Part shown: positions 5,671 through 58,267 of the stretch, in pieces | How positions within the stretch are numbered: position 1 is the first letter of the stretch | Layout of the letters: the number at the start of each line of letters is the position of its first letter | Source of the DNA: Balneolaceae bacterium | GTDB taxonomy: Bacteria > Bacteroidota > Rhodothermia > Balneolales > Balneolaceae | Assembly (NCBI GenBank): GCA_034521495.1 | Contig: JAXHMK010000018.1 | Location: 1 to 64,000 of the forward strand | Direction of reading: 5' to 3' | Length of the DNA stretch: 64,000 nt | Translations under genes and position numbers: made by a program | Notes under the pieces: generated by a model | Told to the model about the DNA's origin: nothing | The model's input: the letters and a program-made list of their open reading frames with translations, nothing else | The model's database searches: none

Positions 5671-8049
5671 TCAGAGTACAGTCACATCTTCTGTTGACTT
5701 ACTTTCTGCCAGAATAGTATCGCGAATGTGCAACACATGGTTATCATCCTCGGGATCGAGCACTCCAAGATAAATCCATTCATTTTCTATCAACTTTCCA
5801 ACTGTTTCTTTATTTGATTCGATAATGGATTTTACTCTTTCCCGGGGAGCATAAATTAAAACCATCAGCCGTAGCGGCAGGTGTTGTAACAGGTTCTCAT
5901 CTTCGCGAATCGACTCAAGAGGCAATCCGCATTTAAGATCTCCGCCATTTCCCTGTACCACACCATATTTTCCGGTTACATTTTGAGTTACTTTTGTACC
6001 GCTGCCAAATTTTTCTATATCTACCGAAGCAAAATAGTAGTGGTTGTTAATCCATTGCGTTACAACCATGGGGCCCTGCAGGATCGCCTCCAGTTTTTTA
6101 CCGTCGGGATCTTTTTGCCAGTCGTAAGAATGCAGAAAACTGCGTGTTTCCAGATCGAGGTTAGCGGTAAGTTGACGGGGTCCAATTATAAAGGATGCAT
6201 TGCCGGCCAGGCCCCATTCAGGACGTGTTTCTGCCCAGTCTGATGCCCGCCGATTCGCCTCACGTATTGATGCTTTCTGCTTGTACTCCGAAATATTGAA
6301 TTGCTCGTAATTTGCATAATTTTGCGCCATTCGCAGATTGGCCCGCAGTTGTTCTACCTGTTGTTGGAACGGGTCCGGTATGTTTCCGTCAAACAGGTGA
6401 ATGTGGTTGGTCGTGGTATTGTGCTCAGCAGCCAGGAACCAGGTATCATCGGGAATGGCGATTTCGTAATTCTCATTCAGATATTTTCTGACTTTGCTGT
6501 CATTGCAAATATTGGCCAGGGCCCGGGCATTATGGCGCCCTTTATTCCCGGCACAGGCTCCGCAATCCAGGCTCGAAGCAAATGGATTATTTGCCGTTTG
6601 ACTGCCATGCCCGGCAAAAATAACCAGATCCGAAAATTCGTCCCAGCCCATCAGCTCAAATGCCGTCTTTGCAATTTCCGCCTTCACAGGTAACGGTAGT
6701 GCCTGAGTTATTTGCGACTGATCAGAGAGCCGCGGGAATAAATTTAAATCGCTAAAATTTTCGGGCTGATCAATGACTTTAGACACATAGTTTTCAATAC
6801 TATTGACCCAATTAGGAGTCAGCGTCCGCATCAGCATAGCAAGAGCGTAAAAGAATCCAGTGGATTCCACATAGCCGAAAGACGCCGGGATATTGTTTTT
6901 CAGAGAAAATCGTAGCCTCTCCACAGCCTGTTTAAGACTGTTGTAATAGTCAAATTTTTCAGATTTGGTTCTGTTGTTTGCCCCGACCTTTTCGGTTGCC
7001 TGTATTTCTGCTTCCACTATGGGCGGACATGATTTATGGTGAATCTCTTTTTCGGGATGTATGTAATCCATAGCCACACCAAAAAATCCGGCATAGCCAA
7101 AGGTTTCATAATTACCGGCTTTTTCTACGGCACGTCTAATCCGTTCGGAGCGGGTATCAATACAGAATACAAACTGCGCATCGGGTACCGTTTTTGTGCC
7201 GTTAGAACCTATTACCGCCTGTTTTTTTATTTTGTTAACAAGCTTTTCCTGATAGGTGAGTTCCATAGCCGTAAGCCAGGCTAATTTCAGCTTGTCTAAT
7301 TCTTTGCGGTCCTTCTGTTCCGGTTTTATTGATGGCCGGAGATCTTTATTGAGCATTGCACAAAGCGTAAACCGTACAGCCAGGTAATCTTCTAACGTGA
7401 TGGGATAGAGATCTTGCCAATCACTTTGATTCGACACCCGGAATTTGATATATCCGACCCAACCCGGAAGAGCAAATAGATGATGCTTCAAAATTGGGTT
7501 TAACATATCCGGCTCGAAGGATGCTGTAAGATGCTGTATCGCCTCCAGCGGTTCGTCCGGCAGCGAATTGATGACCTGCCGGTTGGGCAGTGTCCGGTCA
7601 AAACGAGCCGTTGTCAGCCAGGCCTTGTAAAATCCTGATTTCCGGTTTGGCATCCCCCATTCGGTAGATCCCTCATCCAAAAATACAGTAAGCCATTTAA
7701 TCATATGCCGGTCTATTTCGCCGAGCAAGTGATTTTTTGTGGTGTCGGTTTCCAACTCTCGTATTCGGGACAACGACTCTTCACCACTAAGCGTTATATC
7801 TTGGTCCTGTAACTGCTGGTTGAGTATTTCAATATCAACCTCTCCATTTTTCCAGGCCTGTTGAAAGGCCTGAACAGAAGGGTATCCCTCAATACCAATA
7901 TCTTTTCGGATCCCGGAAATCGCCTCCTCGAAACGAAGGCCCTCCATGCCGGCAAGCGGATTGGAGGTAACAAAAGAGTAAAGAGGCCAGTTATTTGGCA
8001 ATTGGTCCGAAAGTGATTGTATGATTGCAGTAATTGATTCTTTATCCAT
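5671..8049 (-). CDS. dabA: DabA, inorganic carbon transporter subunit (DUF2309/UPF0753)
   Basis: A 792-residue protein of the DabA family, the beta-carbonic-anhydrase-like peripheral subunit that couples with DabB for energy-dependent CO2/bicarbonate accumulation. The expected zinc-site motifs are present: CIDTRSE near residue 297, GHGS near 480 and CGACAGNKGRHNARALA near 497 (Cys, Asp, His, Cys ligands). The length is near the usual 800 or more. It lies 20 bp downstream of the dabB-like gene in the same operon. It would act at the inner face of the cytoplasmic membrane. No RuBisCO or carboxysome genes are in the window, so the carbon probably feeds carboxylases or pH balance (inference). Confidence 0.9.
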   Translation of the reverse strand: MDKESITAIIQSLSDQLPNNWPLYSFVTSNPLAGMEGLRFEEAISGIRKDIGIEGYPSVQAFQQAWKNGEVDIEILNQQLQDQDITLSGEESLSRIRELETDTTKNHLLGEIDRHMIKWLTVFLDEGSTEWGMPNRKSGFYKAWLTTARFDRTLPNRQVINSLPDEPLEAIQHLTASFEPDMLNPILKHHLFALPGWVGYIKFRVSNQSDWQDLYPITLEDYLAVRFTLCAMLNKDLRPSIKPEQKDRKELDKLKLAWLTAMELTYQEKLVNKIKKQAVIGSNGTKTVPDAQFVFCIDTRSERIRRAVEKAGNYETFGYAGFFGVAMDYIHPEKEIHHKSCPPIVEAEIQATEKVGANNRTKSEKFDYYNSLKQAVERLRFSLKNNIPASFGYVESTGFFYALAMLMRTLTPNWVNSIENYVSKVIDQPENFSDLNLFPRLSDQSQITQALPLPVKAEIAKTAFELMGWDEFSDLVIFAGHGSQTANNPFASSLDCGACAGNKGRHNARALANICNDSKVRKYLNENYEIAIPDDTWFLAAEHNTTTNHIHLFDGNIPDPFQQQVEQLRANLRMAQNYANYEQFNISEYKQKASIREANRRASDWAETRPEWGLAGNASFIIGPRQLTANLDLETRSFLHSYDWQKDPDGKKLEAILQGPMVVTQWINNHYYFASVDIEKFGSGTKVTQNVTGKYGVVQGNGGDLKCGLPLESIREDENLLQHLPLRLMVLIYAPRERVKSIIESNKETVGKLIENEWIYLGVLDPEDDNHVLHIRDTILAESKSTEDVTVL

Positions 8050-8069
8050 GCTATTTAGCTTAAGTCCGT

Positions 8070-9512
8070 CTATTGAAGTATTGTGTTTGATTTGGGTTGA
8101 GATATATTCAGCAGGTATACATAAAGGCGACGAGATTTTTTATACCACTTTAGTTCGATAGCTAAAAAGGTAGCCAGATACAGCCCTCCAACGGTTAACT
8201 GATCCCAGGTAATAGGTAAGGGAACTTCTGCCATTGGAACCTGCTGCATCAACACTGAAATACCATTAAATACAACGGCATATGTCAAAAGTGCCGGGAT
8301 GATAATGATGGGTAATGCAATAAGCCGGGAGAGCAGGGGCAGAGAAGATTTACCGAGAAAATCCTGGGCTCCGTGGATAACGGTTAACACAATTACGAAC
8401 GTTAGAAAAAGTCCGCTGTTAAATTCCAGCCCCTTGCCTGTGGTAATGGCAAATATCCATCCTCCGGCTAAACCGCTAATAAGTGTGACGGGCAGGTACC
8501 ATTGCTTCCAGCTCCGTTTTCTATCTCCATTGTAAGGTGAGCTTTGCTCTATATTGTCACCGGATGAAAGAAACAGGTAAGCTTTGTAGAAACCGTGCAG
8601 TATCAGGTGTGCAATAGCAGCTGAAAAGAAACCGAGTCCGCATTGCAGCAACATAAAACCCATTTGAGCAGTCGTTGAACAGGCCAGTTTCTGTTTGATA
8701 TTTGCCTGCACAAACTTGCTGAACTTTCCGACAAGAGCACCTACTCCACCAACTATGACCAATACCCAAAGCAGATCACTCACAAAGAGAACGGGTGCCG
8801 TACGGGTCAGTAATACAGCACCGGCATTCACAAAGCCCGCATGCATCAGGGCCGATGCCGGTGTTGGGGCTGTCATAGAAGACATCAACCAACGCTGGAA
8901 GGGGAATAGTGCTGATTGTACGACCGCCCCGCCAATGAGCAGCAGTGCGGCGACCGAAACAGAAGGTTGATCCATGGTATCAGCTAAAGATGTAATCTCT
9001 GAAATACTCCATGCCCCGGTAAGAATAGATAGCCATAGAAATCCGGCGGATATAAATGCTGTACTTAATAAAAAGTAATTTCTGGCATTCCTTCTTGAGG
9101 CTTGTCCCTCATAATATTGCGTGTATCCACCAATCAGCTCTGCCATGAGAAGCCCCATGCACAACCAGGCTGCAATAAATAATAGAATGTGATTAGCTAT
9201 AGCCATTAAAATGGCTGCGATCGTGAATAGTGTGCAATTAATTAAGAATCGGCGGAGTTTTTTGTGGCCGGCAAGATATCTGGATGAGTAGGTGAGTACA
9301 ATGCTGCTGAAAAGAGCAACAGCAGAACTAATGATAAGTCCAAGGTGATCTATAAGCAGTATTTGACCGATATGAATTTCTATAGGATAAAAAAATGATG
9401 TAGCTAATATGGAGACAAGGAATAAGGTCAGTGTCCACATAAATCGAACTATTATCGAAGAAAACGGACGGTTCTTTTGTCTTAGACTTTTAATTTCTGA
9501 TTGAGGCGACAT
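8070..9512 (-). CDS. dabB: DabB, NuoL/MrpA-like membrane subunit of the inorganic carbon transporter
   Basis: A 480-residue polytopic protein of the proton-conducting NuoL/MrpA family. The signature segment is ALFPFQRWLMSSMTAPTPASALMHAGFVNAGAVLL around residues 200-236, including the conserved Lys/His-type proton-path region (SALMHAG). It is shorter than NuoL (about 600), as expected for DabB. It is the first gene of the dabB-dabA operon. The immediate neighbour dabA, rather than other nuo or mrp genes, decides the assignment. Confidence 0.88.
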   Translation of the reverse strand: MSPQSEIKSLRQKNRPFSSIIVRFMWTLTLFLVSILATSFFYPIEIHIGQILLIDHLGLIISSAVALFSSIVLTYSSRYLAGHKKLRRFLINCTLFTIAAILMAIANHILLFIAAWLCMGLLMAELIGGYTQYYEGQASRRNARNYFLLSTAFISAGFLWLSILTGAWSISEITSLADTMDQPSVSVAALLLIGGAVVQSALFPFQRWLMSSMTAPTPASALMHAGFVNAGAVLLTRTAPVLFVSDLLWVLVIVGGVGALVGKFSKFVQANIKQKLACSTTAQMGFMLLQCGLGFFSAAIAHLILHGFYKAYLFLSSGDNIEQSSPYNGDRKRSWKQWYLPVTLISGLAGGWIFAITTGKGLEFNSGLFLTFVIVLTVIHGAQDFLGKSSLPLLSRLIALPIIIIPALLTYAVVFNGISVLMQQVPMAEVPLPITWDQLTVGGLYLATFLAIELKWYKKSRRLYVYLLNISQPKSNTILQ

Positions 9513-26325: not shown

Positions 26326-27516
26326 ATGGAAAAAAGCTATCCTCAAAAGACGACGCAATCGTTTGCAGTTATAATCATTTCTACATTTGTATTTTTTGCT
26401 TTCACTGCATTTAACGGATCTAACCCTGATTTTAACCAGACAACCGGCATTTCTCAGTCTGCACAAGGTGTTGATACAACGGTAACGGCTTCACCATTAT
26501 CAGGTAAAGAACTTTACATGCAAGCCTGTGCAAATTGTCATGGTGTGGATGGAAAAGGAGGATCAGTTAAACAGCTTGGCTTGCAAACTCCTCCGCCTGA
26601 TTTTACAGATTGTGACTTTGCAAGTCGTGAACCGGATGGAGACTGGATTGCCGTTGCACACCAGGGCGGCCCCGCAAGAGGGTTTTCAACAGAGATGCCG
26701 GCATTCGGAGAGGCAATATCGGTCGGGGAGCTTCAAAAAATTATGGATCATGTACGAACGTTTTGCAGGAATGACAACTGGCCACGCGGTGAATTAAACC
26801 TGCCAAGGGCGTTGGTTACCGAAAAAGCTTACCCGGAAGATGAAGCCGTTATTTCTTCTTTTATTGATGTGGAGAATGAAGGTGCTGTAATGAATGAGAT
26901 TGTCTATGAGCAGCGTTTTGGTGCGAGGAATCAAATTGAGATTGTTTTTCCTTTCGGCTATAGCCAGATGCCCGGGGGAAGCTGGAGCGGCGGACACCTC
27001 GGTGATATGGCAGTTGGCGTGAAGCGCGCTTTCTATCACAACTACAACAGTGGAACAATCCTCAGTTTAACCGGCGAAGTTATTCTGCCCACGGGAGATA
27101 CTGCAACTGGGTTTGGCAAAGGGACGACGGTTTTAGAACCATTTGCCTCTTTTGGTCAACTGTTGCCGGCCGGAGGCTTTTTGCACGTTCAGACAGGGTT
27201 GGAATACCCGGTGTTGCAAGATAAAGCAGAAAATGAAGCCTTTTGGCGAGCTGCTTTAGGTAAGAGTTTTAATCCAAATCCCTGGGGACGAACATGGTCG
27301 CCCATGGTTGAAATGCTCGGTTCGAGAGAGCTGGAATCCGGCGCTGAAATTCATTGGGATATCGTGCCTCAAATGCAAATCACTCTTAATAAGCGACAGC
27401 ATATCATGCTAAATGTTGGGTACAGAATACCGGTAGATGACGCCGGCAGAGAATCTCAGTTTATGGTTTACATTTTATGGGACTGGTTTGACGGCGGTTT
27501 TTTTGAGGGATGGTAA
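26326..27516 (+). CDS. monoheme c-type cytochrome fused to a probable outer-membrane beta-barrel
   Basis: 396 residues. An export signal (about 11-35) leads to a class-I-like cytochrome c domain (about 60-150) with one heme site ACANCHGVDGKGG and a Met-containing distal region (STEMPAFGEAISVGELQ). From about 180 to the end the protein has alternating beta strands, many aromatics and a C-terminal aromatic residue (YILWDWFDGGFFEGW), the look of an outer-membrane barrel. A ribosome-binding site (AGAGGAGAAGAG) precedes the ATG. It is followed 54 bp later by a pentaheme cytochrome. An electron-transfer role across or at the outer membrane is inference. Confidence 0.8.
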   Translation: MEKSYPQKTTQSFAVIIISTFVFFAFTAFNGSNPDFNQTTGISQSAQGVDTTVTASPLSGKELYMQACANCHGVDGKGGSVKQLGLQTPPPDFTDCDFASREPDGDWIAVAHQGGPARGFSTEMPAFGEAISVGELQKIMDHVRTFCRNDNWPRGELNLPRALVTEKAYPEDEAVISSFIDVENEGAVMNEIVYEQRFGARNQIEIVFPFGYSQMPGGSWSGGHLGDMAVGVKRAFYHNYNSGTILSLTGEVILPTGDTATGFGKGTTVLEPFASFGQLLPAGGFLHVQTGLEYPVLQDKAENEAFWRAALGKSFNPNPWGRTWSPMVEMLGSRELESGAEIHWDIVPQMQITLNKRQHIMLNVGYRIPVDDAGRESQFMVYILWDWFDGGFFEGW

Positions 27517-27570
27517 TGCAGATGGGATTCAAAATGATATTCTTAATAGATTAATGAATGGGAGAACGAG

Positions 27571-29241
27571 ATGTATAAAAACCTGATAATCATTATATCA
27601 CTTCCAATTTTGACGATAGCTTTGAGCGTCAGTATTAATAACTTCCACGCGGATAACCCCGATCCTGTACCTCAAATTCACGGAATGGATCTCCCTAAGG
27701 CACAGCAGATGCTTTTTTCGACAGCTGATAATTGCATGAACTGCCATAACAATTTAGTATCGCCAGCCGGCGAGGATATATCCTTTGGAACGAACTGGCG
27801 TGCCAGCATGATGGCCAATTCTGCCAGGGATCCCTATTGGCATGCAGCTGTTCGCAGGGAAGTGATGGATCATCCGGAATCTCAGGCCGCTATTGAAAAT
27901 GAATGTTCTACCTGCCACATGCCGATGGCTCATACCCAGGCAAAAGCGATGGGACAAATGAGCCAGGTGTTTGCCAATCTTCCGGCCAATCAACCCTTAA
28001 CACAACAAAATATGCTGGCTGTGGATGGTGTATCCTGTACTACATGTCATCAAATAAAACCTGATAATTTCGGAGAGCGCGAAAGCTTTGTCGGTGGGTT
28101 CCTAATTGATACCGAAAAGCCGATGGGGCAGCGAGAAATTTACGGACCCTATCCCGTCGACCAGGGGCGATCAAAAATTATGCATTCCTCATCCGGCTTC
28201 CAGCAGGTTGAATCGAAACACTTGATAGAATCTGAGATGTGTGCAACCTGTCACACGCTTTACACTCATACATTGGGTCCCGGGGGAGAAGTGATTGGCG
28301 AGCTTCCGGAGCAAGTGCCCTATCTTGAATGGAAACACAGCAGTTTTGTGAATGATCAGAGTTGTCAATCCTGCCATATGCCGGTGGTAGAGGGAAGTAC
28401 GGAAATTGCGTCTGTTTGGGGACAACCCCGGGAGGAAGTATCAAAGCACACGTTCAAGGGCGGGAACTTCTTTATGCAGAGAATGCTCAATCGCTACCGG
28501 GATGAACTGGGAGTTCAGGCGTTGCCGCAGGAGATGGATGCCGCTATCAATCGAACCGTAGATCACCTACAGACAAAATCAGCTTATATTTCAATAACGA
28601 ATGCAGAGGTAGTTGGAGATGAATTAATTGCCGGGGTGGAGATCGAAAACCTTGCCGGGCATAAGCTTCCAACCGCATATCCCTCCCGAAGGGCATGGAT
28701 CCGTTTTACGGTATTAGATCAGAACGATAATGTAGTTTTTGAATCTGGTGCAGTCATGCCAAATGGTTCGATCGCGGGAAATGATAACGATCAGGATGGC
28801 AGCCGTTTTGAACAGCACTATTCAGAAATTACGGATGAAGACCAGGTTCAAATTTATGAAGCTATTCTTGCTGATCCGCAAGATGAAGTAACAACCGGGC
28901 TTTTAACGGCTATTCGATATATCAAAGACAACCGAATCCTGCCGAAAGGATTCGATAAATCCACGGCTGATGATGATATTGCCGTAAAAGGTTCTGCAGA
29001 TAATGATAATGATTTTGCGGGCGGCGGTGATAAAGTTCGATATAGGGTTAAGTTGGATAATTTGAATGGACCATTTCAGGTAACAGCCGAATTGTATTAT
29101 CAACCGATTGCCTACAGGTGGGCTCAAAATCTCGATTCGTACCAGGCATCTGAGACAAATCGTTTTGTTGGCTACTACAATTCAATGTCTGAGCAATCGT
29201 CTGTAGTACTTACCTCTACAAAAATGACAGTTACGAAGTAA
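27571..29241 (+). CDS. pentaheme c-type cytochrome (multiheme cytochrome family)
   Basis: 556 residues with an N-terminal signal (LIIIISLPILTIALSVSI). Five CxxCH heme sites: CMNCH (about residue 53), CSTCH (112), CTTCH (157), CATCH (224) and CQSCH (268). The second half (about 330-556) has no heme motif and looks beta-rich (AGVEIENLAGHKLPTAYPSR; VRYRVKLDNLNGPFQVTAEL). It is probably periplasmic or surface-exposed and works with the cytochrome-barrel protein upstream. Maturation needs the Ccm operon at 54.4-58.3 kb. Substrate not evident; nitrite, hydroxylamine or extracellular electron transfer cannot be separated from sequence. Confidence 0.88.
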   Translation: MYKNLIIIISLPILTIALSVSINNFHADNPDPVPQIHGMDLPKAQQMLFSTADNCMNCHNNLVSPAGEDISFGTNWRASMMANSARDPYWHAAVRREVMDHPESQAAIENECSTCHMPMAHTQAKAMGQMSQVFANLPANQPLTQQNMLAVDGVSCTTCHQIKPDNFGERESFVGGFLIDTEKPMGQREIYGPYPVDQGRSKIMHSSSGFQQVESKHLIESEMCATCHTLYTHTLGPGGEVIGELPEQVPYLEWKHSSFVNDQSCQSCHMPVVEGSTEIASVWGQPREEVSKHTFKGGNFFMQRMLNRYRDELGVQALPQEMDAAINRTVDHLQTKSAYISITNAEVVGDELIAGVEIENLAGHKLPTAYPSRRAWIRFTVLDQNDNVVFESGAVMPNGSIAGNDNDQDGSRFEQHYSEITDEDQVQIYEAILADPQDEVTTGLLTAIRYIKDNRILPKGFDKSTADDDIAVKGSADNDNDFAGGGDKVRYRVKLDNLNGPFQVTAELYYQPIAYRWAQNLDSYQASETNRFVGYYNSMSEQSSVVLTSTKMTVTK

Positions 29242-29252
29242 AGGCTCCAAAC

Positions 29253-29286
29253 CTGGCACAAGTGTTCAGCGGAGCGTGACTTGTAC
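29253..29286 (-). repeat. REP hairpin, copy 4
   Basis: ctggcacaagtg...ttcagcggagcg...tgacttgtac, inverted relative to copy 6. First of two tandem REPs between the pentaheme cytochrome and the RAYT gene. Confidence 0.8.
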
Positions 29287-29293
29287 CCCAAAC

Positions 29294-29328
29294 CTGGCGC
29301 AAGTGTTCAGCGGAGCGTCACTTGTGCC
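29294..29328 (-). repeat. REP hairpin, copy 5
   Basis: ctggcgcaagtg...cacttgtgcc, in tandem with copy 4 (41-bp spacing) and 108 bp upstream of the RAYT start. Confidence 0.85.
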
Positions 29329-29435
29329 ACTCACGCCCCTGCCTGTCTTAACTTCCCCACCCATCGAACTTGCGCTATTCAAGAGATAAATGTATTTATC
29401 TTAAATGGTCAGACTAACGATCAGAGGAGAGAACA

Positions 29436-29984
29436 ATGAGCAGAAAATACAAATTCTATGACTCAAAGAAGCCCCACTTCGTAAGCTTCGCCATCGTCAA
29501 CTGGATCGACTTGTTTACAAGGAAAGATTATGTTGATATCGTAACGGAGAGCATGTCGTATTGTATTCAAGAGAAAGGACTGATATTGAATGCCTGGTGT
29601 ATTATGACCAATCACGTGCATCTGATGATCCGATCGGAACAGAATTTGTTGTCCGATATCATGAGGGACCTGAAGAAGTTTACTTCTTATAAACTATATT
29701 CTACAATTCAAGAGCATCCGCAAGAAAGCCGGAAGGAGTGGCTCTTATGGATGTTTGAACAGTCTGGGCAGGCAAATGAAAATAACAAGAACATTCAGGT
29801 TTGGCAGCAGCATAATCAACCGATTGAACTGGACACGAATGAGAAAATTGATCAACGGTTGGAGTATTTACATATGAACCCGGTAAAAGCCGGATATGTC
29901 ATCAAGCCGGAAGATTGGGTGCATAGCAGTGCCCGACAGTATGCAGGATTGGAGGATCGGTTTGATCTGGAGCTGATTGAATAG
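29436..29984 (+). CDS. REP-associated tyrosine transposase (RAYT, Y1/HUH type)
   Basis: 182 residues. The HUH metal motif NHVHLM is near residue 58 and the catalytic tyrosine is in YLHMNPVKAGYV near residue 145, with the usual RAYT C-terminus (EDWVHSSARQY). RAYTs cut single-stranded REP hairpins at their foot and spread them in the genome. Two REPs lie upstream in one orientation and one downstream in the other, the arrangement of a RAYT-REP module. The gene is preceded by a strong ribosome-binding site (AGAGGAGAG) and looks intact. Confidence 0.92.
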   Translation: MSRKYKFYDSKKPHFVSFAIVNWIDLFTRKDYVDIVTESMSYCIQEKGLILNAWCIMTNHVHLMIRSEQNLLSDIMRDLKKFTSYKLYSTIQEHPQESRKEWLLWMFEQSGQANENNKNIQVWQQHNQPIELDTNEKIDQRLEYLHMNPVKAGYVIKPEDWVHSSARQYAGLEDRFDLELIE

Positions 29985-54448: not shown

Positions 54449-55111
54449 TTGAAGATTTGGAAAATTGTCGTAGCGATTTGGATGACCGGAGTCATTTTAG
54501 CCGGATTCCTCATTCAGATTCCTGAAATACCTATTTTGGAGCAATCGGCAAGAAATCTGTTTCTGCATGTGCCCATGTGGTTTACGATGATGATTGCCTT
54601 TTCGATGGCATTCTATTTTAGTGTTCGGTATTTAAACGATGAGCATCTGAAGTGGGATCGAAAGGCAGAAACTGCAACTTCGGTCGGACTACTGTTTGGT
54701 ATTTGTGGATTGCTGACTGGATCACTCTGGGCACGATTTACATGGGGGTCTTGGTGGACGTTTGCAGAGCCGCGAATGAACCTGGCTGCATTAGCCATGT
54801 TGATATTTGTGGCTTACTTTATTCTGCGGTCGGCATTTAACGATCCCGAAAAGAAGGCAAAAATTTCTGCTGTTTATAATATTTTTGGAGTAACTACCAT
54901 CCCGTTTTTACTATATATTATACCGCGTCAATTACCAAGTTTACATCCGGGGGCTGAAGGAAATCCGGCTTTTAGTGAAATTACTGCGCCTGAACTCAGA
55001 TATATATTTTACCCGGCAGTGATCGGATTTATTGGTTTGTCTTTGTGGATTATGAATGTTGTAAACCGATATAAAGTTGTGCAGCAAAAGAGTACCGTGA
55101 GCGGATCATGA
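54449..55111 (+). CDS. ccmC: CcmC-like cytochrome c maturation membrane protein
   Basis: 220 residues from a TTG start, about six helices. The heme-handling tryptophan-rich loop is TWGSWWTFAEPRMNLAALAM near residue 100, a Bacteroidota-type form of the WWD domain, flanked by His candidates (LFLHVPMWF near 30; LPSLHPGAE near 170). CcmC loads heme onto CcmE at the outer face of the inner membrane. First gene of a tight ccm operon; the next gene overlaps by 4 bp. Confidence 0.9.
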   Translation: MKIWKIVVAIWMTGVILAGFLIQIPEIPILEQSARNLFLHVPMWFTMMIAFSMAFYFSVRYLNDEHLKWDRKAETATSVGLLFGICGLLTGSLWARFTWGSWWTFAEPRMNLAALAMLIFVAYFILRSAFNDPEKKAKISAVYNIFGVTTIPFLLYIIPRQLPSLHPGAEGNPAFSEITAPELRYIFYPAVIGFIGLSLWIMNVVNRYKVVQQKSTVSGS

Positions 55112-55368
55112 AAGTAAACATACAAGATTCAGTGAACACCGCCGTTGACACTCTGACCAACAGTTACTCCGGCAAATGGGAAGGGGTTGAAAGTACCGAA
55201 CAAACATCTGCATTTATACAATTCATGGCATCCAACGATCTTATTTTTGTAGTTTTAGGAGTCAGTTTAATAATCTGGTTTGTGTTGCTGTTCTACCTGA
55301 TCCGGGTGGACAGAAATGTAAGCAAGCTGGAAAAATCATTGAAAGAGGAATCAACAGATGAAACCTAA
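55108..55368 (+). CDS. ccmD: CcmD-like small membrane protein
   Basis: 86 residues. A soluble N-terminal half (VNTAVDTLTNSYSGKWEGVE) is followed by one membrane helix (LIFVVLGVSLIIWFVLLFYL, about 50-69) and a charged tail (RVDRNVSKLEKSLKEESTDE). The position between ccmC and ccmE, with overlaps to both (4 and 11 bp), decides the call. CcmD stabilises the heme-export complex. Confidence 0.82.
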   Translation: MKVNIQDSVNTAVDTLTNSYSGKWEGVESTEQTSAFIQFMASNDLIFVVLGVSLIIWFVLLFYLIRVDRNVSKLEKSLKEESTDET

Positions 55369-55753
55369 ATTAATTATTGGCATTGTATCTATCATTGTTT
55401 TTACATCACTGTTGATGTACAATTTTGGCAACAGTATTAGTACCTACGTGAATTTTGAAGAAGCAGAAGGGCGATCATCTTCACATGTGGTAGGTGTATG
55501 GGATTCCTCAGAAGAGTATGGATTTTCGAGAGAAACCATGCAGTTTACATTCCATATGGAAGACCGGGCCGGGAATGTTCGAAAAGTGGTTTATGCCCGT
55601 CCGAAACCAAATAATTTTGAGCAGGCTACTCAGCTTGTTGTTATCGGTGAGTTAAGAAATAATGTTTTTTACGCAAACGAAATGCTCATGAAATGCCCGT
55701 CTAAATACAACGATTCGCCCGATTTTGAAAAGGCAAGTGCCACAGAGAGTTAG
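55358..55753 (+). CDS. ccmE: CcmE heme chaperone, cysteine type
   Basis: 131 residues. N-terminal membrane anchor (LIIGIVSIIVFTSLLMYNFG) and a periplasmic OB-fold domain. The heme-binding end reads VVIGELRNNVFYANEMLMKC, then PSKYND. The usual HxxxY is replaced by CxxxY (CPSKY, Cys near residue 113), the C-type CcmE known from archaea, Desulfovibrio and many Bacteroidota. It carries heme from CcmC to CcmF. It overlaps ccmD by 11 bp and lies 6 bp before the ccmF-like gene. Confidence 0.9.
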   Translation: MKPKLIIGIVSIIVFTSLLMYNFGNSISTYVNFEEAEGRSSSHVVGVWDSSEEYGFSRETMQFTFHMEDRAGNVRKVVYARPKPNNFEQATQLVVIGELRNNVFYANEMLMKCPSKYNDSPDFEKASATES

Positions 55754-55759
55754 AATTAT

Positions 55760-58267
55760 ATGATTGCCGAAGCAGGACGCTGGTTTATTTATCTCGCTTT
55801 TATCTCTTCTATTATTACTATGGGGTTGTATGCCTTTGCCTCAATCAAAGAAAACAAAAAGGCTGAACGGTTGTCCAACTGGATTTGGGGATTCAAAGGG
55901 GTCCTTGTCATAGGGGCTTCCGTTGCGCTCGTTTACCTTATTATGACGCATCAGTTCCAATACTATTATGTGTGGAACTACACAAGCCTTGATCTCGAAA
56001 CCAAATATCTCTTTTCAGCTCTTTATGGAGGACAAGAGGGGAGTTTTCTGCTGTGGATTTTCTTTGGATTCTTTGTTGGACTTGGTCTGATCAAATGGAC
56101 CCGGAAACCGTATCGGGGGCCGGTTATGTTTGTGATGGCATTGACACAGTTTTTCCTTCTTTCTATGATTTTGGGTTTGGATCTTGGAATTGCAAAAATC
56201 GGGGCTTCTCCTTTTCGAACCATTGCCCAGGAGATGCCAAATGCCCCTTTTTTACAAGCTAATCCCGACTTCGTACCGCAGGATGGAACCGGTTTGAATG
56301 ATCTGTTGAAAAGCCCATGGATGATGATTCATCCACCTATCATATTTCTTGGGTTTTCAATGATGACCGTACCTTTTGCCTTTGCAATCGCATCTCTCTG
56401 GACTAAAACATATCACGGGTGGATTCGACCTGCTCTCCCCTGGACACTCGCAGCGAATCTGTCACTATTGACAGCTATTTTTCTCGGTGGTTATTGGGCG
56501 TATGAAACACTTTCGTTCGGTGGTTACTGGGCGTGGGATCCAGTTGAAAATGCATCTCTTGTTCCCTGGTTAATCGGAACAGCCGGAATTCATGCGATGA
56601 TCATCCAGCGGAAAAGTCGCCGGGCTCATAAAGCCTCTCTCTTTTTTGCAATACTGGCTTACGTCTCCGTAATCTATCAAACCTTTTTAACGCGCTCGGG
56701 CGTACTGTCAGATCAATCCGTTCACAGTTTTGTAGATCTGGGGCTGTATAACCAGTTGCTTGCTTTTATACTGATCGTCACATTTATGGGAATTGGGTTC
56801 TATCTCTATCGTTATAAAGATCTTCCATCCCCTAAAGACGAGTCCAAAGTTTTGAGCCGGGAATTTATGACCTTTACCGGCGCAATGCTTCTTTTTATAC
56901 TCGGTTTAGTTATAATTCTGGGAACAAGCTCGCCCATATTAGGAAAGCTATTTGTTGCTAATCCCACACCGCCTGAGATCCAGTTTTACAATAACTGGAG
57001 TATGCCGATTGCAATTATTATGGCCATTGCCACAGTTGTGGGACAGTATCTTTTTTGGGAGAAACACAACTGGGAAAGCCTGGCTGGAGAGTTGATTACC
57101 CCGCTTCTTATCACATCAACCGTGGCTGTTATTTCAATTGTCATGGGGAATGTTACTTCTCTCTATTATATGATTTATATCTTTGCCGGTTGGTTTACAG
57201 TGATTGGAAATGGAACTGTATTGGTAAAATTATTGAGAAAAAATCCAAAACTGGTTGGGGGTACTATTACACATATCGGGTTTGGAATGCTTTTGTTAGG
57301 AATTATTGCTTCTTCTGTTTACACCGAGCCGATGCTGGATCCGCAAACCTCCAATTACAACACCCGGATTGAACAGGGAGAAGTTTTTGATGATGAAGGT
57401 TTTCCCATCACACAAAAAGTGGAAATGTTTGAGCTTAAACTCAATCAGCCCAAATTAATTAATGACAAATATATGGTGACGTACGAGGGATACGAACTCA
57501 CCAATTCGCCTCGGCCCGGACAACAAAATTATCGTCTGAAATTCGAATCGATTGAAGGAGACAAAACTTTTTATATGTCTCCGGAAGTTTACCCCATGTT
57601 AACATCCTCGGGACCCAATAGCGTTGAATGGTCTGTTGATCCCCATGTTAGAACAGGTCTGATGAATGACATCTATCTATATGTAGCGGGAAGTCAATAC
57701 GTAGAAAAGCGAAATGAGGCGATTAAGGAGAATACAGAAAATCAGTCCATTGTACCAGTTGGTGATGAAGAAGCTATCCAGGATGAGCAGGGAGAAGCTC
57801 AAATAATTGAGATCAGCCGCGGCGAAACAACAACTGTAGGACCGTTTACATTTACATTCAGGAATTTCGTACCGGCCAGTGAAGAATCACTCCCTGAAAA
57901 TACACAAATTGGAATTCGTTCCTTGATACATATTGAACACGAACCCTCCGGGCGGGCTTTTGAGGCTGAACCTCTTTTTGCCGTTTATACGGAAGAAGAG
58001 AAGAGCTACACCTATTCACCACCTATTGAAATTCCGGAGTGGCAAATGAATGTACTCTTCAGCAGTGTTCACCCTGATTCAGACTCCATAGAACTGAGTG
58101 TCTATGGTTTGGATGAAAACTTTGAAGAAGATTGGGTGCTGGTTGTTGCCGAACAGAAACCGTTTGTATCCGTAGTATGGATGGGAACGTTTTTACTGAT
58201 GGCCGGTTTTTCCATATCAATTTTCCGCCATTGGGCACGAGAGAAAAATACCGCTGAGAAAGAATAA
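55760..58267 (+). CDS. ccmF: CcmF-like heme lyase
   Basis: 835 residues with about fourteen helices. The WWD heme-handling signature is GGYWAWDPVENASLVPWLIG near residue 255. Other CcmF features are QEGSFLLWIFFGFFVGLGLI near 90, LFFAILAYVSVIYQTFLTRS near 295 and GTITHIGFGMLLLGIIASSV near 500. A large periplasmic domain (about 530-790) precedes the last helix. It joins heme to CxxCH sites of exported apocytochromes such as those at 26-29 kb. Last gene of the operon; longer than E. coli CcmF (about 650) by its periplasmic part. Confidence 0.93.
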   Translation: MIAEAGRWFIYLAFISSIITMGLYAFASIKENKKAERLSNWIWGFKGVLVIGASVALVYLIMTHQFQYYYVWNYTSLDLETKYLFSALYGGQEGSFLLWIFFGFFVGLGLIKWTRKPYRGPVMFVMALTQFFLLSMILGLDLGIAKIGASPFRTIAQEMPNAPFLQANPDFVPQDGTGLNDLLKSPWMMIHPPIIFLGFSMMTVPFAFAIASLWTKTYHGWIRPALPWTLAANLSLLTAIFLGGYWAYETLSFGGYWAWDPVENASLVPWLIGTAGIHAMIIQRKSRRAHKASLFFAILAYVSVIYQTFLTRSGVLSDQSVHSFVDLGLYNQLLAFILIVTFMGIGFYLYRYKDLPSPKDESKVLSREFMTFTGAMLLFILGLVIILGTSSPILGKLFVANPTPPEIQFYNNWSMPIAIIMAIATVVGQYLFWEKHNWESLAGELITPLLITSTVAVISIVMGNVTSLYYMIYIFAGWFTVIGNGTVLVKLLRKNPKLVGGTITHIGFGMLLLGIIASSVYTEPMLDPQTSNYNTRIEQGEVFDDEGFPITQKVEMFELKLNQPKLINDKYMVTYEGYELTNSPRPGQQNYRLKFESIEGDKTFYMSPEVYPMLTSSGPNSVEWSVDPHVRTGLMNDIYLYVAGSQYVEKRNEAIKENTENQSIVPVGDEEAIQDEQGEAQIIEISRGETTTVGPFTFTFRNFVPASEESLPENTQIGIRSLIHIEHEPSGRAFEAEPLFAVYTEEEKSYTYSPPIEIPEWQMNVLFSSVHPDSDSIELSVYGLDENFEEDWVLVVAEQKPFVSVVWMGTFLLMAGFSISIFRHWAREKNTAEKE

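Follow-up and report, generated by a model that had tools for sequence, protein, structure and literature searches.

The locus and its relatives

We analyzed a 64,000-nt stretch of DNA from a Balneolaceae bacterium (GCA_034521495.1, contig JAXHMK010000018.1, positions 1-64,000, forward strand; hereafter the window), the host being a salt-loving bacterium. Two open reading frames (ORFs) lie head to tail on its plus strand, separated by a gap of 54 bases. The upstream one encodes a 396-aa protein in which a cytochrome c domain is followed by a predicted outer-membrane β-barrel (hereafter the fusion), and the downstream one encodes a pentaheme cytochrome c. The features of the locus are:

26326..27516, plus strand: fused cytochrome c/outer-membrane barrel, 396 aa (ORF; Pfam; AlphaFold2, pLDDT 87.5, pTM 0.81)
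26326..26490, plus strand: N-terminal membrane helix (putative export signal) and disordered stretch, residues 1-55 (helix at 9-28 in the model; pLDDT < 50 at 29-52)
26491..26775, plus strand: class I cytochrome c domain, residues 56-150 (Pfam; CANCH at 68-72; Met124; Cys96-Cys147)
26776..26841, plus strand: conserved linker, residues 151-172 (11 of 22 positions conserved at at least 95%)
26842..27480, plus strand: predicted 12-strand outer-membrane β-barrel, residues 173-385 (AlphaFold2; Foldseek; VIA-align; PF13557 in relatives)
27481..27513, plus strand: C-terminal tail DWFDGGFFEGW, residues 386-396 (7 of 11 positions conserved at at least 95%)
27571..29241, plus strand: pentaheme cytochrome c, exported, with a C-terminal Ig-like part, 556 aa, partner gene (five CXXCH; AlphaFold2, pLDDT 90.8; VIA-align Z 25.0 with 5ze8)

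Relatives of the fusion were collected in one scan of genome contigs, and 80 loci were taken from the 89 confirmed relatives. By the labels of their records, they come from Gemmatimonadota (29), Acidobacteriota broadly defined (26, comprising 14 labelled as such, 5 Aminicenantes, 5 Thermoanaerobaculia, 1 Holophagales and 1 Vicinamibacteraceae), Gammaproteobacteria (6), Deltaproteobacteria (5), Latescibacterota (5), Rhodothermia (3), other Proteobacteria (2), Planctomycetes (2) and Dehalococcoidia (1), with one unassigned; most are metagenome bins, and isolated odd group assignments may be binning errors. Together with four close copies from related genomes, the loci gave 82 distinct fusion proteins. 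The fusion alignment (A1), which leaves out L022 and L001 (L001 being the window protein), holds 81 of the 82 sequences, and alignment A2, which leaves out L021 because its ORF continues for more than 1000 residues, holds 75.

Architecture of the fusion protein

The preliminary description of this DNA, made from the letters and their ORFs, had proposed that the 396-residue protein joins a single-heme cytochrome domain to a C-terminal barrel. Pfam, the single CXXCH and the AlphaFold2 model all agree with this proposal, and the 82 relatives keep the design. In the window protein, PF13442 (35.2 bits) and PF00034 (26.4 bits) both exceed the cut-off. Each of the 82 fusion proteins has a single CXXCH, which in the window protein is CANCH at residues 68-72; Cys68, Cys71, His72 and Met124 are invariant in all 82, and we infer that Met124 is the distal heme ligand. 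Cys96 and Cys147 are both kept in 79 of the 82 proteins, which suggests that they probably form a disulphide. A simple lipobox pattern preceding the CXXCH was found in 3 of the 82, and the window protein has no cysteine before residue 68; the helix within residues 1-55 is a putative export signal.

The AlphaFold2 model built on the alignment of 81 sequences (mean pLDDT 87.5, pTM 0.81) shows a meander of 13 strands at residues 173-385, of which 12 are predicted to make the barrel and one (220-225) to sit in an outer loop. When this model was compared with solved structures using Foldseek, the first 18 matches were FapF chains (best E 2.9e-10), followed by NanC, COG4313, KdgM and further outer-membrane barrels. 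VIA-align gave Z-scores of 22.8 for FapF, 21.8 for the COG4313 channel (4rl8; rmsd 2.9 over 216 residues), 19.5 for KdgM and 18.7 for NanC. PF13557 scored 16.4 bits in the window protein against a cut-off of 22, a weak hint of an outer-membrane channel, and 62 of 81 relatives match it at E <= 0.1 (best 2.7e-9). Structure prediction, which had been proposed for residues 180-396, therefore yielded a closed 12-strand barrel, and a globular β-sandwich for this region is ruled out by the AlphaFold2 model, Foldseek and VIA-align. We regard the overall architecture, a heme domain joined to an outer-membrane barrel, as very probable. The aromatic last residue to which the preliminary description had pointed is indeed conserved, tryptophan being the final residue of 75 of the 82 proteins (W396 in the window), but it does not end a strand: the last strand stops at residue 385 and is followed by the conserved 11-residue tail.

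COG4313 and FapF, according to published accounts, are 12-strand barrels whose lumen is entered and closed by the stretch that precedes strand 1. The structural alignments of the fusion start within its linker, at residue 156 for FapF and at residue 164 for COG4313, so that residues 151-172 would, by analogy, be a lumen plug joined directly to the heme domain.

The pentaheme partner

As the preliminary description had noted, a five-heme cytochrome gene (27571-29241) follows the fusion gene. All 79 full-length pentaheme relatives have five CXXCH motifs. Among pentaheme nitrite reductases, NrfA has a lysine-ligated catalytic heme with the motif CXXCK, while some nitrite reductases have five CXXCH. 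We rejected NrfA as the identity of the pentaheme, all five motifs being CXXCH in 79 of 79 proteins, and the stronger argument is the fold: the AlphaFold2 model (pLDDT 90.8) matches T. tepidum c552 (5ZE8) with a Foldseek E of 8.8e-18 and a VIA-align Z of 25.0 over 351 residues at 23% identity. In a paper on cable bacteria, c552 is placed in one group with ExtKL of Geobacter and linked to an archaeal nanowire cytochrome (PMC11976967). The ExtKL equivalog NF040886 did not match the window pentaheme at E <= 1, and pentaheme relatives that stand alone (described below) reached 24.7-38.7 bits against its cut-off of 250.

Anchoring of the pentaheme as a lipoprotein was also rejected, as the simple lipobox pattern occurs in only 2 of 79 proteins. 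No sorting tail of the type IX secretion system (T9SS) was found on the window pentaheme, although 20 of them are encoded in the genome it comes from. Judging from its sequence, the window pentaheme is most likely periplasmic.

Linkage of the two genes

The survey of the pair that the preliminary description had suggested revealed a conserved arrangement: the pentaheme gene lies directly behind the fusion gene in 78 of the 80 loci, in full length in 75 and partially in 3, of which two are at a contig end and one is broken. A pentaheme start within 60 nt of the fusion stop, or overlapping it, is possible in 69 of the 75 loci. In a mirror-tree comparison of 74 pairs, fusion and pentaheme distances were correlated with r = 0.915, the maximum in 2000 permutations being 0.117. 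Apart from the pair, no neighbour was common to most of the 80 loci; these counts are lower bounds, and some family genes were lost to long antisense ORFs (neighbour cluster 0, 72 loci; cluster 1, 59 loci). Ten neighbours that were looked up proved to be DUF3830, Big_2, PepSY_TM, DAO, a sulfatase or nothing, with no shared theme. Two loci have other frames behind the fusion gene. In L033 the frame (2631 onward, same direction) looks cupredoxin-like by eye and may replace the pentaheme as electron partner; in L054 the next frame (4126 onward) resembles, by eye, a GMC-type FAD oxidoreductase.

We also surveyed 247 genomes of the window's phylum (fusion E <= 1e-30, pentaheme E <= 1e-40). The fusion was found in 8 genomes and the pentaheme in 13; five have both, and in these the genes are adjacent. 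In one of the five (G285), an in-frame stop interrupts the fusion gene. At L102:5531-6625, an in-frame TAG breaks the fusion gene and the pentaheme behind it is intact.

The pentaheme alone is present in eight genomes at 11 loci (L113-L123), which are Bacteroidota-like, one genome (G100) having three. These stand-alone pentahemes have about 85-115 additional C-terminal residues. Ten of the 11 were scanned for a T9SS sorting domain, and 7 scored above the cut-off, 2 scored below it and 1 had no match. Because most of them carry a sorting tail, the stand-alone pentahemes of the window's phylum look mostly destined for the cell surface. The contrast between tailed and tailless forms is compatible with a split of roles, the barrel fusion serving a pentaheme in the periplasm.

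Within the window's own group the fusion is patchy, a full-length copy being present in 4 of 58 genomes (the window's included) at 84-100% identity. One of these copies belongs to another family of the same order and is 85% identical. This patchy occurrence, together with that copy, suggests that the fusion gene was transferred horizontally. Culturable carriers of the pair include Rhodohalobacter sulfatireducens and Fodinibius salsisoli. A search for plasmid-borne copies gave no match among 72,556 plasmid records.

Where conservation lies

To locate conserved positions on the barrel, the faces of its 12 strands were assigned to lumen or lipid by mean hydrophobicity, not from coordinates, and strand 220-225 was left out. 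Mean conservation was 0.726 for lumen-facing positions (n = 66) and 0.562 for lipid-facing positions (n = 64; one-sided Mann-Whitney p = 2.3e-6), and 23 lumen-facing versus 4 lipid-facing positions were conserved at at least 90%. By part, mean conservation was 0.906 in the tail, 0.858 in the linker, 0.692 in the cytochrome domain and 0.618 in the whole barrel. Eight lumen residues (Glu195, Arg197, Glu205, Glu251, Glu271, Arg308, Glu329 and Gln351) are kept at 98-100%. The periplasmic turns are of fixed length, with Arg357-Gln358-His359 and Arg322 near invariant. Most outer loops are short, and loop lengths vary (3-5, 12-56, 15-21, 6-8, 4-7 and 8-15 residues). Because conservation concentrates in the lumen and at the periplasmic mouth, these appear to be the working face of the protein. 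The conserved lumen charges may serve a substrate, or they may merely pin the plug.

Three distant fusions that the survey of the phylum turned up retain the CXXCH, Met124, Lys167, Pro170, Glu171, Glu173 and Arg197, as well as Glu205, Lys233, Glu251, Glu329, Arg357 and His359. They differ at Glu271, Gln351, Gln358 and Tyr382, and two of the three lack Glu195 and both Cys96 and Cys147. These genes (L099:6614-7666, L100:6575-7810 and L101:6704-7789), which have no pentaheme nearby, are possibly an older or separate subfamily.

Comparison with known systems

The preliminary description had presented a one-chain heme-barrel as a compact variant of porin-cytochrome conduits, which normally use separate proteins; two proteins of this plan have already been published: Cyc2, described in PMC8406198 as an iron-oxidising cytochrome-porin of the outer membrane, for which 16 strands are predicted and which has a sequence signature of its own, and Cyc572, a fused cytochrome-porin reported in PMC10654088. 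Like both, the fusion is predicted to be one chain with a single N-terminal c-type heme and a C-terminal outer-membrane barrel. Whereas Cyc2 is a porin of 16 strands whose cytochrome part is short, the fusion has 12 strands, its class I cytochrome is complete, and a dedicated pentaheme is encoded next to it. The Cyc2 motif AXPXFAR[Q/K][T/Y] upstream of the CXXCH, searched as PXFAR[QK][TY], and the Cyc2 PXL motif, searched 2 to 6 residues after the CXXCH, were each found in 0 of the 82 fusion proteins. We therefore rejected membership in Cyc2, given the missing signature and the 12 strands in place of 16. As the 12 strands also belong to another barrel family and the class I cytochrome is complete, the window family is most likely an independent fusion. 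No description of this exact cytochrome-barrel fusion was found in the open-licence literature, subscription journals and preprints being outside the scope of the search.

The barrel itself resembles COG4313/PF13557 channels and FapF, which are likewise 12-stranded and whose lumen-inserted N-terminus aligns with the segment before strand 1 of the fusion. The PTG motif reported for FapF is present in 54 of the 82 fusion proteins. Neither COG4313/PF13557 channels nor FapF carry a heme domain, however, and where FapF has an N-terminal periplasmic coiled coil, the fusion has its cytochrome c domain and no coiled coil in the model.

ExtI-ExtKL of Geobacter sulfurreducens is the closest functional parallel. 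There, a gene for an outer-membrane barrel, ExtI, is clustered with that for a periplasmic pentaheme, ExtKL (PMC6148476), and the pentahemes of both systems belong to the ExtKL/c552 family. According to PMC5877670, the reduction of selenite and tellurite is impaired when ExtI is lost. Unlike the fusion, ExtI lacks a cytochrome domain; it is similar to phosphate-selective porins, and the Geobacter cluster has many more genes. T. tepidum c552 shares with the window pentaheme the five hemes and the fold of the heme part and of the Ig-like part, to which the window adds a heme-barrel partner in the operon. With MtrCAB the pair shares an outer-membrane barrel accompanied by a multiheme cytochrome. 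In MtrCAB, however, a barrel of 26 strands (the number given for MtoB/PioB/MtrB in PMC10654088) encloses a separate decaheme chain, whereas the 12-strand fusion is too narrow for one and has its own heme domain.

A proposed function and its alternatives

We tentatively propose, rating it at somewhat under an even chance, that the pair is an outer-membrane redox module, in which a channel would pass a small redox substrate to and from hemes at its periplasmic opening, with the pentaheme as electron partner. The fusion would be embedded in the outer membrane by its 12-strand barrel, which is of the COG4313/FapF type. Since strand 1 starts right after the cytochrome and linker, as in COG4313/FapF, the class I cytochrome c would hang in the periplasm, tethered by the segment that plugs the lumen in those channels, and the pentaheme would be exported to the same compartment. 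A small soluble or lipophilic redox substrate (a metal ion, an oxyanion, or a quinone-like or phenolic shuttle) would pass the barrel and, at its periplasmic opening, donate electrons to or accept them from the heme; electrons would also move between the cytochrome domain and the pentaheme. Diffusion of the substrate, in place of a heme wire, would thus couple electron transfer to transport across the outer membrane. In favor of this proposal we count the barrel fold, the conservation of lumen, linker and tail, the linkage of the pair, the missing T9SS tail and the ExtI-ExtKL analogue. Several observations weigh against it. Some outer-loop residues are conserved as well (His224, Gly226, Asp227, Gly257 and Gly264). 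The mirror-tree correlation is expected from joint inheritance alone. Another gene takes the place behind the fusion in 2 of the 80 loci (L033 and L054), and three genomes have a distant fusion with no pentaheme within the 14-16 kb examined; hence the pentaheme is not indispensable to the fusion. According to published accounts, salt bridges pin the FapF plug, and the conserved lumen charges may do only the same here. Ion conductance of the COG4313 channel whose structure is solved is reported to be very low, and hydrophobic substrates may leave this channel laterally, into the membrane. A more elaborate version, which we think possible but rather doubtful, is that the family is a second, independent class of one-chain cytochrome-barrels, derived from COG4313/FapF-type channels, in which the heme tethered to the plug couples redox state and opening, while a diffusing substrate carries electrons across the membrane and exchanges them with the periplasmic pentaheme.

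The chief rival holds that the barrel is a mere anchor, which keeps a periplasmic class I cytochrome in place for docking of the pentaheme while nothing passes the lumen. Conservation is highest in the periplasmic linker, tail and turns, the outer loops are short and variable, and COG4313 barrels are reported to be plugged by the segment before strand 1, all as an anchor would have it. An anchor needs no invariant lumen, however, although pinning of the plug could explain part of the conservation at the eight lumen residues. We consider the anchor unlikely. It is improbable, in our view, that the fusion is a true transmembrane conduit through which electrons cross the outer membrane to or from the surface, as in Cyc2. 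The one-chain plan of heme plus barrel is that of Cyc2, an outer-membrane iron oxidiser according to PMC8406198, and the T9SS tails on 7 of 10 scanned stand-alone pentahemes place this cytochrome at the surface in other genomes. Yet the fusion has one heme, carried by a class I cytochrome that is complete and too large for a 12-strand barrel, and no second redox center to span the membrane; its outer face is little conserved and the Cyc2 signature is absent from all 82 proteins. A heme wire through the barrel is also unlikely because the related COG4313 channel would, according to its published description, be only about 10-12 Å wide even without its plug. The compact porin-cytochrome electron conduit envisaged in the preliminary description thus exceeds the evidence, the barrel being too small for a heme chain and both cytochromes being most likely periplasmic.

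Very improbable, finally, is a secretion pore, in which a FapF-like barrel would bring the pentaheme or some polypeptide out to the cell surface. The closest structural match is FapF, a channel for polypeptide secretion, and the pentahemes that occur without a fusion in eight genomes of the survey carry T9SS tails instead. During cytochrome c maturation, heme is attached in the periplasm, so that a five-heme protein would fold there. A pentaheme folded in this way would be too wide for a 12-strand barrel; moreover, the uptake channels KdgM and NanC match nearly as well as FapF, whose coiled coil is not seen in the model.

Other features of the window

At 29240-29340, right behind the pentaheme gene, a short sequence is present in two near copies (AAACCTGGC..CAAGTGTTCAGCGGAGCGT), and a REP-type transposase-like ORF (29436-29984) comes just after them. 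CcmC-like, CcmE and CcmF cytochrome c maturation genes are located at 54449-58267 on the plus strand, consistent with heme attachment in the host. On the minus strand, 5671-9512 encodes DabA (PF10070, 770.7 bits) adjoining a proton-antiporter-type membrane subunit, a DabAB-type pair for inorganic carbon uptake.

Significance

Electrons are known to cross the outer membrane either through large barrels with heme chains inside or by way of proteins of the Cyc2/Cyc572 type. To these, a widespread heme-barrel of 12 strands paired with its own pentaheme would add another architecture, and would do so in groups that are not usually counted as electroactive, such as Gemmatimonadota, Acidobacteriota, Latescibacterota, Proteobacteria and others. 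The two genes would provide a marker pair that searches with Cyc2 motifs would miss, and they allow one to ask whether a channel delivers a soluble substrate to the heme or a heme wire reaches the surface. The fusion and its pentaheme may represent an unrecognised way of handling electrons at the outer membrane in many bacterial phyla.

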